NCBI GenBank assembly: GCA_947471985.1
Contig: CANIZL010000025.1
Location: 1 to 63,491 of the forward strand
Length of the DNA: 63,491 nt
Source: Verrucomicrobiota bacterium
GTDB taxonomy: Bacteria; Verrucomicrobiota; Verrucomicrobiia; Limisphaerales; UBA9464
Direction of reading: 5' to 3'
Positions within the stretch are counted from its first letter, which is position 1. Every line of letters starts with the position of its first letter. The translations under genes and the position numbers were made by a program. This document shows positions 32,858 to 35,875 of this stretch, one piece after another. A model generated the notes under the pieces. The model ran no database searches and was not told the DNA's origin. It saw only the letters and a list, made by a program, of their open reading frames with translations.

Positions 32858-35800
32858 TCAAGGCTGCCGTAGCGGAATCACGAGCGTGCCCAAATCCAGC
32901 GGCTCAGTGGCTCCGGTGTTTTCCGGAATCGTGACGCTGCGCTCCAGCTGTCCCAGTTCAGTGCGATTATAATTGTCGTCGTCATTCGCGGCGCCCGGGG
33001 CGGGTGGCTGTTTAACGCGCAATTTCAGGGAATACCGGCCGGGCGGCACGTCGTCGATGCGGAAGGAGCCGTCCGGTTGAATCGTGAGAAAATGTTTTCC
33101 GGTCTGCGCCTGCCAGCGTGCCCAGGCGCGTGCGTTTTGGATATATTGGGGATTCTTGCCCGGAAAGCCATCCGGCGGCGGGGGCGGCAAGTCCTCCCGA
33201 ATTTGCACCAATTGCTGCAAATCATCCCGCCACTCGAAGCCGGCCAAGGCACGAGAAAGCGCCAGCCGTCCGATAATGGCCCGTCCCACGCCACTGACGG
33301 TCACCTCGGCCACTTCTCCGCCGGTCACAGTTACCGGCGTCGCGGCGCCGATGCCCACCGGACCCAGGCCCGTGCGATTGAAATTGAAGTATCGACTTAC
33401 CTGGAATTTTCCGCCGGGAACCCGTTCGAAGCGAAAGCGCCCCCGGTTGTCCGTGGTGGTGTTGCCTTGCACTTCAATGCCCGGAGCGGCGGAATCCTCC
33501 TCGGGAAGACTCGCGGCCAAGGTTACCATTTTCCCGTCGGCCGGCTCGCCACCCACCCGCAAGGTCCCTTCAATGGCGCCCCAGGGCTTGAGCCCCAACG
33601 CCGTTCGCGCGACTTCCGCAACCGGCACAAACGCCCATCCGGAATCGTGCGCTACGAGAACCGACTGCGCGCCGATCGCGCGCGGCAGGGCAAATCGGCC
33701 GTTCGCATCGGTCACGGTTTGCGGAGCATCATTGCCGCTGAAGGCGCGTCCGTCGGTCCCGATGATAAGGCCAAAACCCACGCCATTCAGGCCAACCAAG
33801 GCCCCAGCCACCGGGCGCCCGCCGGGGTCTAAAACCAGACCGGCGATTTGACCCCCACGTCGCAAGCGAATCTCAAAAACCGATGAATCGTCCTTCACGG
33901 AGCGCGGATCGGACTTCAAGGGTTCGTATCCATCGGCTTCGACCAACAGGGAGAAGTTCTGGACGAACGGCATTTCCATCGGCCAATCGAATCGGCCGTC
34001 ATGACCCTCGCCCACCAGAGAGGTGCTGCCGCCGGTTTGCTCATCCAGCAGCACCCGAAAAAGCTTTAACGGGTCGCCCGATTCCGCGTCGCGGACGTCG
34101 CCGGTGATCCGAACGGTCCTGACTTGAGCCATGCGCTCGTCCCCGTCCGACGGATTGCCATCCTTGGGTTCGAGCGCGAGGACGACGTCGTGCGTCGTTT
34201 TATCCAGTATGAAGGAGTGCTTCCGCTCGCGGAATCCGTCGGCCGTGGCCGCAATTTTCAGCGGTCCGGGGGCGAATGGGCCCAGGATAAAGGTTCCGTC
34301 ACCCGAGGACTTCGTTTTTCGCGTTGGGAGGTTATAATTGTGTTCTTCCTGGATTTTGGCCTCGGCCAGGGCAGTCCCATCGCCATCGCGCACCTGCCCG
34401 TGGACGAACAGGCCGGTGTGCAAAATGACCACATGATTCGTGCGGAGTGTCGCCGGGCTCTGGAGATCCACCGCAACCCGAACGTAGTTTGGGTGCGACA
34501 CCGAATAGCGCATGGTGTTCCTGCCCACCAGCAGGGGCAATTGATCGGTGGCATACCGTCCCGCTTCGTCGCTGATCACCGAAGTGAGCGCGTCGAAGTA
34601 ATCGATATTCTCCCGCGCGCTCACATCCATGCCGGGCGAATGGAACTGGATCCGGGCCCCGGCCACGGGATGTCCGGCTTCGTCCTGAACGGTGCCCCGC
34701 AGCATCTGCCCCCGCTGCATTCGGCAGGTATAAAGCAGGAGTGGCTCCACGAACTCATGCTGTTTCCAACGCAAGTGCACCGGGACGTATCCGGGCACGG
34801 ACAACCAGAGCGAAACCTGATGAATGTTCGGATCAGCGGCGGGTATCTCCAGGTTGCCCTGCGAATCGGAATTCACCTCTTGTCGGCGCAATGGCTCCCG
34901 TCGCGTCCAGAAGAGGGCCATACCGCCGGCGACCAAGGCCCGATTGTCATCCGCGGCCCGGACATTGATGAGAATGCGCGAAGGCCCCGGCTGCGCCGGA
35001 AGCGGGGACGTCTCGGGAATCTTCGTCGCGGGCGCTTGGGCAGCTTGGGTGGGCGTGGCGGGGGCGGGATCCGCGACGGTCGCCGGCGTGGGTTCCGAAA
35101 GCTGGGTCCAAAACACGCCGCCGGCCACCAACACGACCAGCGCCGCCGCCGCCCACGGCAGACTTTGAAGCAGGCGGGCCAGGAACTGGTCCCGCTGGGC
35201 GCCGGCGGCGAGGCCCATCGACGCCGGGGCCGCGCTATTGCCAATGACCGCGGCGGAGATTTCCCCGCTGAGCCCCACCGGGGCGGCGCCGGCGGGCAGG
35301 TTCAAGAGCAGGGTGGTCAGCGCGGCGACGGTCAGCGCCACGCCGCGGTGACTGAGGAAGTTTCGCAGCTTTTCCACCGCGCGACTGACCCGTTTCTTGG
35401 CGGCTTCCTCGCCGACCCCGAGGCGCTCGCCCACTTGTCGCAGCGGCTGGTTTTCCAGAAAACGCAGCAGTACCGCGCGTCGATCGCTTTCCGAGAGGGC
35501 CGCCAGCGCGGCATCGAGGTGCGGTTCCACTGCGGTCCAATGCTCGGGCAGCGGGGCGGTTTCGGTGTCCGGTGGTTGCATGGTGGCCTGATGTTCGTGA
35601 TGGACGCGGCGTTGTTCCGCACGCACGGCGCGGGCGGCGACGAAGCGGGTGGTGCGGAAGAGCCAGCCCGAGAGAATCACCCCGGGACCCAGCGAACCCG
35701 CCTTGCGTGACAGGACGAGGAACACCGCTTGAGCGATGTCCTTCGCCAGCGCGGCATCGCGCACTTGCCGCAGGGCGGACGCATAGACCAGGTCCAGGTG

Positions 35801-35875
35801 CCGACGGACCAGCTCCGCAAACGCGGACTCATCACGTCGGGACGACCACGCTTCGAGCAGTTCCAAGTCAGTCAT
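32858..35875 (-). CDS. ECF-like sigma factor fused to hydrophobic region and carboxypeptidase-regulatory-like repeats
   Basis: A 1,005-residue fusion from the ATG at 35875 (a GTG at 35890 would add five residues). Residues 10-90 are sigma region 2 (FAELVRRHLDLVYASALRQVRDAALAKDIAQAVF, GWLFRTTRFVAA), and 120-172 are region 4 with the helix-turn-helix (QPLRQVGERLGVGEEAAKKRVSRAVEKLR). Two hydrophobic segments follow, near 178-198 and 240-257, then an Ala/Pro/Thr-rich linker. From about 300 on there are at least five carboxypeptidase-regulatory-like beta repeats (starting near 390, 485, 588, 670 and 765), each with a GxV/LxDxxGxPV start or a T-D-x-x-G-x-F end. If only one helix spans the membrane the beta part is periplasmic; if both do, it is cytoplasmic. 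There is no anti-sigma gene beside it. Confidence 0.88.
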   Translation of the reverse strand: MTDLELLEAWSSRRDESAFAELVRRHLDLVYASALRQVRDAALAKDIAQAVFLVLSRKAGSLGPGVILSGWLFRTTRFVAARAVRAEQRRVHHEHQATMQPPDTETAPLPEHWTAVEPHLDAALAALSESDRRAVLLRFLENQPLRQVGERLGVGEEAAKKRVSRAVEKLRNFLSHRGVALTVAALTTLLLNLPAGAAPVGLSGEISAAVIGNSAAPASMGLAAGAQRDQFLARLLQSLPWAAAALVVLVAGGVFWTQLSEPTPATVADPAPATPTQAAQAPATKIPETSPLPAQPGPSRILINVRAADDNRALVAGGMALFWTRREPLRRQEVNSDSQGNLEIPAADPNIHQVSLWLSVPGYVPVHLRWKQHEFVEPLLLYTCRMQRGQMLRGTVQDEAGHPVAGARIQFHSPGMDVSARENIDYFDALTSVISDEAGRYATDQLPLLVGRNTMRYSVSHPNYVRVAVDLQSPATLRTNHVVILHTGLFVHGQVRDGDGTALAEAKIQEEHNYNLPTRKTKSSGDGTFILGPFAPGPLKIAATADGFRERKHSFILDKTTHDVVLALEPKDGNPSDGDERMAQVRTVRITGDVRDAESGDPLKLFRVLLDEQTGGSTSLVGEGHDGRFDWPMEMPFVQNFSLLVEADGYEPLKSDPRSVKDDSSVFEIRLRRGGQIAGLVLDPGGRPVAGALVGLNGVGFGLIIGTDGRAFSGNDAPQTVTDANGRFALPRAIGAQSVLVAHDSGWAFVPVAEVARTALGLKPWGAIEGTLRVGGEPADGKMVTLAASLPEEDSAAPGIEVQGNTTTDNRGRFRFERVPGGKFQVSRYFNFNRTGLGPVGIGAATPVTVTGGEVAEVTVSGVGRAIIGRLALSRALAGFEWRDDLQQLVQIREDLPPPPPDGFPGKNPQYIQNARAWARWQAQTGKHFLTIQPDGSFRIDDVPPGRYSLKLRVKQPPAPGAANDDDNYNRTELGQLERSVTIPENTGATEPLDLGTLVIPLRQP

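Follow-up and report, generated by a model that had tools for sequence, protein, structure and literature searches.

Extracytoplasmic function (ECF) sigma factors are usually controlled by separate anti-sigma proteins. A gene on contig CANIZL010000025.1 (assembly GCA_947471985.1) of a bacterium of the Verrucomicrobiota (Limisphaerales, UBA9464), analyzed here as a window of 63,491 nucleotides, raises the question of how such a factor may be held and released when it shares one chain with a membrane segment and a large repeat region. The answer that we favor, with a probability of roughly 0.55, is a one-protein transmembrane signaling device, in which a membrane-held sigma factor would be released by proteolysis when its own periplasmic sensor responds, and would then activate its own promoter.

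The open reading frame (ORF) at 32858..35890 on the minus strand opens with GTG and has zero internal stops; the ATG at 35875 gives a protein of 1005 amino acids (aa). The gene, its parts and two promoter-like boxes ahead of it are as follows.

32858..35875, minus strand: gene of the tethered ECF sigma factor, 1005 aa, stop at 32858, alternative GTG start at 35890
35606..35812, minus strand: sigma region 2, residues 22-90 (Pfam PF04542, 6.9e-9)
35360..35509, minus strand: sigma region 4, residues 123-172 (Pfam PF04545, 5.9e-11)
35240..35350, minus strand: conserved extension after region 4, residues 176-212, with the short helix H1, AAPxGL and a second short helix (conservation, model)
35105..35158, minus strand: H2, predicted single transmembrane helix, residues 240-257 (hydropathy, N-terminal model)
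34982..35101, minus strand: linker rich in Pro, Ala and Thr, residues 259-298 (sequence; predicted local distance difference test score, pLDDT, mostly <50 in both models)
32867..34978, minus strand: transthyretin-like CarboxypepD_reg array, residues 300-1003, presumed periplasmic sensor (Pfam, modeled strands, fold match)
35919..35924, minus strand: -35-like box TGTCCC of a putative autoregulatory promoter (recurring in the family at -48 to -54)
35899..35904, minus strand: -10-like box GGGGAT, 14 nt past the -35-like box and 23 nt ahead of the ATG

An earlier reading of the letters alone (the sequence-only reading) had placed sigma regions 2 and 4 and about 700 residues of carboxypeptidase-regulatory-like repeats in one polypeptide, and the family searches agree. 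Pfam finds both regions in one intact ORF and CarboxypepD_reg in six stretches (9.4e-39, 132.1 bits against a cut-off of 32.3). In a full-length model from nine sequences (mean pLDDT 70), beta-strands of the repeat region span residues 300 to 1000, and residues 489-572 resemble the transthyretin (TTR)-like domain of human carboxypeptidase D (5aq0; Z 11.9, root-mean-square deviation (rmsd) 1.5, 79 residues aligned). The solved-structure matches listed barely cover H1 and most repeats.

The ECF superfamily model TIGR02937 was the only one above its cut-off among the best 25 of 70 NCBIfam matches (69.8 vs 42.9 bits); Sig-70_gvs1 (TIGR02989), a Rhodopirellula/Verrucomicrobium family, reached 46.0 bits against a curated cut-off of 124.55. 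In an N-terminal model from 69 family sequences, pLDDT was 90-98 over most of regions 2 and 4, and the best-ranked matches of this model among solved structures were ECF sigma factors, with region 2 of E. coli sigmaE (4lup; Z 14.2, rmsd 1.5, 91 aligned) and also SigW and SigK. Within the protein, Pfam gave no match up to E 1 to a zinc finger, a FecR-like anti-sigma domain or WD40, the C-terminal part (C-part) being CarboxypepD_reg. The sole cysteine is residue 384, so that residues 1-300 have none. As the sequence-only reading had also stated, no anti-sigma gene was recognized in the family scan of the neighbors (DUF218, DUF350, a family-less 125-aa ORF, GSP_synth and DUF3592).

In the proposed mechanism, the N-terminal ECF sigma factor, which has no recognizable anti-sigma domain, would lie in the cytoplasm. 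Its region 4 would continue through the conserved, hydrophobic extension into one N-in/C-out helix, from which a flexible linker would lead to the transthyretin-like array in the periplasm. In the resting state, the sigma factor would be kept at the inner membrane, away from productive use by RNA polymerase. A change sensed by the repeats would lead to site 1 cleavage on the outside, and site 2 cleavage within or beside the membrane by an RseP-like M50 peptidase would free the sigma domain. This would bind promoters of the type TGTCCC-N14-GGGGAT, first boosting its own gene. The fusion is intact and conserved, belongs to a family, and has one good transmembrane helix and a conserved promoter-like motif. 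Inhibition at rest, the signal, cleavage, promoter use and targets beyond the gene itself are inferred; for inhibition, signal and cleavage, this weighs against the proposal.

The inhibition might reside directly behind region 4. Residues 176-212 (R-G-V...L...AAP-x-G-L...) carry an occupancy-weighted information of 2.4-2.5 bits, compared with 2.85 bits for the sigma regions and 1.47 bits for H2, the last value being low partly due to a gappy alignment. In the N-terminal model, H1 is a nine-residue helix (183-191; mean pLDDT 95 over 181-190). The stretch may be a brake: a short built-in anti-sigma folded on the sigma domain, with the membrane part setting its position and the signal passing by conformation. 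Conservation nearly as high as in the sigma domain and a high-confidence short helix directly behind region 4 speak for this possibility, but a role in folding or in binding polymerase could explain such conservation just as well. We regard it as somewhat unlikely in its own right; it could be combined with release by proteolysis.

A sigma factor that stays tethered and is active in place, in the manner of ToxR and CadC, would dispense with proteolysis altogether; the repeats would then alter its oligomeric state or its position in the membrane. One transmembrane helix with an outward C-part and a long unstructured linker would suit such a device, and no protease was found among the scanned neighboring genes. 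On the other hand, a sigma factor has to associate with core RNA polymerase, and only a few residues separate region 4 from the hydrophobic part. Moreover, IutY, the tethered ECF factor whose activation has been measured, is freed by Prc and RseP (PMC8999054). Activity in place is thus judged unlikely. Release by proteolysis is also proposed for SCO4117 (PMC5826349). The candidate peptidases carry little weight: M50 peptidases are present in the genome, but M50 matches were also obtained in 14 of 14 control genomes, and their presence therefore proves little. ECF factors of Tuwongella immobilis (Gemmataceae) were found in Triton- and SDS-soluble fractions (PMC8567305), which fits membrane association by analogy, though these are other proteins.

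The position of the repeats depends on the number of membrane spans. Two spans would return them to the cytoplasm and spoil the idea of an envelope sensor, whereas one span would place them in the periplasm. Two hydrophobic helices had been proposed from the sequence, at residues 178-198 and 240-257, and both stretches are hydrophobic in the 1005-aa protein (19-residue Kyte-Doolittle values of 1.72 and 1.85). When the best 19-residue windows were picked automatically as H1 and H2 in 142 relatives, a value of at least 1.6 was reached by the second segment in 122 and by the first in only 50. The segment at 240-257 is therefore likely the lone membrane-spanning helix, while that at 178-198 is, judging from the model, probably a short conserved helix directly behind region 4 and not a span. 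By eye, the sequence of H1 is also reminiscent of an internal signal peptide (AxA-AP site). We consider this unlikely because H1 would be cytoplasmic in the favored topology, is conserved near the level of the sigma regions and is modeled as a short helix immediately after region 4.

Four indirect lines suggest that the C-part probably lies outside the inner membrane, and the argument rests mainly on the periplasmic C-part domains of relatives. Besides the window protein, the domain census took in 104 script-selected relatives with complete ORFs of <=1150 aa at E <= 1e-18, counting from locus L023, out of 149 distinct sigma ORFs; 25 of 83 Pfam families were listed. Among the matches listed, the 105 C-parts held CarboxypepD_reg in 15, TonB_C in 6, and SecDF_P1_head, Secretin_N and FKBP in 1 each. 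TonB_C fusions in Opitutaceae and related bacteria scored 53.8-70.4 bits (L077, L083, L085, L093 and L100), with L099 below the cut-off at 20.7 bits. Of these, TonB_C, SecD P1 and the secretin N-domain are periplasmic in function. The tethered sigma factors with C-parts of the SecDF P1 head, FKBP-type peptidyl-prolyl isomerase (PPIase) and Secretin_N kinds were located at L065:9871-10731, L072:7565-8365 and L125:5126-6259. The sigma-transmembrane-TonB_C gene of L077 is adjoined on the other strand by a 1048-aa gene that resembles a TonB-dependent receptor by eye.

The net charge was higher before H2 than after it in 74 of the 105 proteins, equal in 18 and lower in 13. This asymmetry arises because acidic residues follow the helix (mean 0.21 before, 1.54 after); lysine and arginine (K/R) counts are balanced. 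A further line comes from ORFs that share a C-part and have no sigma domain. Fifty such ORFs were found, 28 of them (25 distinct) with a hydrophobic segment near an ATG; K/R exceeded aspartate and glutamate ahead of that segment in 21 of the 25, and 15 of the 25 lay within 300 nt downstream of a fusion. The 25 have script-chosen starts and include two M56 proteins and some ORFs with only a domain in common. Finally, CarboxypepD_reg-like repeats also occur on two M56/BlaR1-type peptidases of the same genome, C37 (E 1.1e-23, residues 639-1003) and C74, which correspond to loci L019 and L022. The C-terminal sensor of BlaR1 is extracellular (PMC7593790). All four M56 genes of the genome adjoin a BlaI-type gene, and the best 12 of 46 literature matches gave no report of BlaR1 combined with CarboxypepD_reg.

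Several observations weigh against an outward C-part behind a single span. The positive-inside count was unhelpful, with K/R higher before H2 than after it in 61 of the 142 relatives, equal in 25 and lower in 56 (means of 1.89 before and 1.86 after). Among 15 long C-parts, the net charge was as expected in 9, equal in 2 and opposite in 4, and 3 of the 105 C-parts hold another window with a Kyte-Doolittle value of at least 1.8. For some rows, the automatic choice of the H1 and H2 windows is wrong. The full-length model drew a continuous helix at 216-256, with H1 at 179-191; its confidence there is low, and the borders of the helices are thus uncertain. In addition, a C-part of the FKBP, HEAT or WD40 type is on its own no guide to the side of the membrane.

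The balanced K/R counts, the two hydrophobic stretches and the few relatives with WD40-type C-parts would also suit two transmembrane helices with the repeats as a cytoplasmic interaction scaffold, as has been proposed for WD40 repeats in some ECF57 proteins. Against such a layout stand the weak first segment with its nine-residue helix, the TonB_C, SecDF P1 and Secretin_N C-parts of relatives, and the hydrophobic, mostly basic N-termini of the sigma-less copies, and we consider it very unlikely. The earlier claim of a sigma factor covalently tethered to the membrane, with a large beta-repeat part probably facing the envelope, is thus upheld with one span.

Some of the sigma-less ORFs are twin genes with a like transmembrane segment and C-part. 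These, 15 in all, begin from -1 to about 150 nt past a sigma fusion; examples on the plus strand are L083:8325, L108:8554, L071:10582, L074:8545, L080:8829, L085:9965, L104:2084 and L101:9560. They are possible co-receptors.

Upstream of the gene, the promoter-like motif that the sequence-only reading had suggested looking for was found; no copy (<=2 mismatches, 14-nt spacing) precedes the DUF350/YjfL-like gene, which had been named as its second expected site. TGTCNN followed 12-19 nt on by GGGGA, at -48 to -54, was present in 10 of 146 upstream regions: those of the window gene, four of five relatives, the long and more diverged L011, L057, L064 and L073, and L115, whose frame matches residues 1-98 only. 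TGTC alone occurred in 32, 30 and 11 of the 146 regions in the 10-nt bins from -30, -40 and -50, compared with 2-7 per bin farther up. When the second box was allowed to be GGGGA, GGCGG or CGATA, pairs of -35- and -10-like boxes were seen in 53 of 142 upstream regions, compared with 1 of 142 for the control interval -240..-165. The motif types cluster on the sigma tree (45 changes vs a shuffled mean of 64.3, as low in 0 of 200 shuffles), to which near-copies contribute; the GGGGA label alone needed 4 changes vs 9.7 shuffled, and the GGCGG label alone was weakly clustered (25 vs a mean of 29.0, as low in 18 of 500).

The recurrence of this motif suggests autoregulation, in that the tethered sigma factor would act through the putative TGTCCC-N14-GGGGAT promoter of its own gene. 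A TGTC-type -35 element is known for ECF41 (TGTCACA-n16-CGTC; PMC3426412). Less favorable are the choice of the three -10-like boxes after inspection of the sequences, the 58 of 142 upstream regions with neither the pair nor TGTC, and relative L024, which retains GGGGAT without TGTCCC. A reading of TCCCC/GGGGA as an inverted repeat or operator is unlikely, because variation is confined to the left box (TGTCCCG, TGTCACC, TGTCCGG), the right one being GGGGA throughout. The exact motif TGTCCCN{13,17}GGGGAT has 3 sites in the genome vs 1 for the reversed control. Two lie at about -50 of tethered-sigma genes, namely the window gene and the C62 paralog, and the one in C48 overlaps ORFs on both strands. 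A wider regulon found no support. In the window, the motif with <=2 mismatches occurred 13 times vs a chance mean of 9.65, and the sites of a less strict pattern in 10 genomes were scattered, some of them upstream of sigma fusions.

The same layout recurs within the genome (6.38 Mb, 180 contigs, 43 region-2 matches), where eight further loci combine the same N-part with differing C-parts and a ninth (C50) lacks the N-terminus. CarboxypepD_reg was found in the C-parts of C62, C38 and C67 and HEAT slightly below the cut-off in C82; the other paralogs scanned had no named C-part domain. The sequence-only reading had allowed that homologs might split the two halves into separate genes, with a frameshift in this assembly. 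This is not borne out: the relatives L023, L024 and L027 share the full layout and run uninterrupted over their whole length (38-46% identity), L026 is truncated where its contig stops, and L025 alone is broken across frames, close to where its repeats begin. A sequence artefact, or a non-functional fusion of a sigma gene with a secreted-repeat gene, can be dismissed as extremely improbable, since the split L025 and the 459-aa paralog C11, which ends early, are outweighed by the three intact relatives, the paralogs of the same layout and the promoter-like motif retained upstream. By sequence comparison, the fusion is a conserved family and no assembly artefact. Two further ORFs, a sigma fusion that stops early in its repeats (L018:2040-3419) and a sigma-less repeat ORF on another contig (L021:902-3088), are probably decayed or frame-broken copies.

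Matches with E 1e-20 or better occurred in 41 of 58 genomes searched as relatives, and matches at E 1e-15 in 23 of 194 genomes of the phylum (own genome counted in both), so that the family is patchy. The best 80 of 417 confirmed loci in a scan of named genomes were mostly from Verrucomicrobiota, including CAIVQB010000070.1 of an uncultured Verrucomicrobia bacterium, with some from Planctomycetota (many Gemmataceae), one from Lentisphaerota and one from Polyangiaceae; the last is a 193-aa ORF with no room for an extension. A point of caution for the proposal is that the named relatives are almost all metagenome-assembled genomes or drafts. On the sigma tree, for which the bootstrap was not settled, eight planctomycetal or unnamed rows and one Lentisphaerota row formed their own branch (100/98), and the Phycisphaerales row L091 was placed among verrucomicrobial rows. 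Several tethered-sigma genes may also stand in close runs, as at L084:6995-13820, L093:3551-10935 and in L127.

Tethered ECF factors as such are not new, as the sequence-only reading had acknowledged: extended or tethered groups, ECF48, 52, 53, 36, 57, 115 and 243 among others, are described in PMC8999054. IutY (ECF243), a sigma/anti-sigma hybrid of Pseudomonas putida, likewise holds its sigma domain in one chain with a membrane-bound regulatory part. Its extension is a fused anti-sigma factor of cell-surface signaling (PMC8999054), whereas none was detected here and a TTR-like array would lie outside. Closest in layout are ECF52 (SCO4117) and ECF48/ECF53 of Actinobacteria, in which the sigma domain is followed by a transmembrane segment, a Pro-rich linker and an outer domain, and for which autoregulation is putative and proteolytic release proposed (PMC5826349 and PMC8999054). 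H2 matches their one to two transmembrane helices after the sigma domain, by hydropathy and model; unlike here, where residues 1-300 are cysteine-free, they carry a zinc finger, likely of ZAS type, between the sigma domain and the membrane.

The ECF57 and WD40-fused factors of Planctomycetes share a C-terminal extension, and a comparable hydrophobic extension turned up in sequences from Gemmataceae, which may or may not belong to ECF57. The two cysteines that link regions 2 and 4 in ECF57 (PMC8999054) are absent from the window protein. BlaR1/MecR1 (M56) with BlaI/MecI also let one membrane protein sense and control transcription, and two of the M56 proteins in this genome bear repeats like those of the window protein. 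BlaR1, however, cleaves a repressor (PMC7593790), while here the transcription factor sits in the same chain. The string 'Verrucomicrob' does not occur in the main text of the ECF review PMC8999054, and titles and abstracts of the best-ranked literature matches on fused, tethered and membrane-bound sigma factors gave no description of a verrucomicrobial tethered family; an existing ECF group number is possible.

The new points are the exchangeable outer domains, the promoter-like motifs across the family and the sigma-less twins. A broader and decidedly tentative reading is a large class, undescribed in the literature searched, in which an ECF sigma factor with a built-in brake (176-212) and one transmembrane helix would carry an interchangeable periplasmic module, each member driving its own promoter. 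The modules would comprise TTR-like repeats, the TonB C-terminal domain, the SecD P1 head, the secretin N-domain, PPIase-like domains and others. In some lineages, the sigma-less twin might serve as co-receptor or as anti-sigma substitute, and in members with TonB_C an outer-membrane receptor could signal to the sigma factor in one step.

Around the gene, positions 30893-32782 of the window hold DUF350 and glutathionylspermidine-synthase-like genes on the same strand, a pair that we take to be yjfL/yjfC-like. A functional link of this pair with the sigma gene was discarded, as no motif precedes it and no neighbors of this type were seen by eye beside relatives L053-L056 (ORF listing, no family search; L052 is too short). 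An Acyltransferase_3 membrane protein with inserted ankyrin repeats lies at 36896-38764, and a protein of very large size at 1205-7048 contains six stretches of Lamin Tail Domain.

For these bacteria, one protein may thus be both envelope sensor and gene switch, with no separate inhibitor of the usual kind, and a built-in sensor that is swapped among members shows how bacteria of the group may multiply their envelope sensors. The family offers modular parts, namely the sigma domain, the transmembrane helix and the outer domain, with a likely promoter that can be read upstream of the gene. It also makes testable how an anti-sigma factor may be replaced, and whether an outer-membrane receptor could reach a sigma factor directly through TonB-type C-parts.

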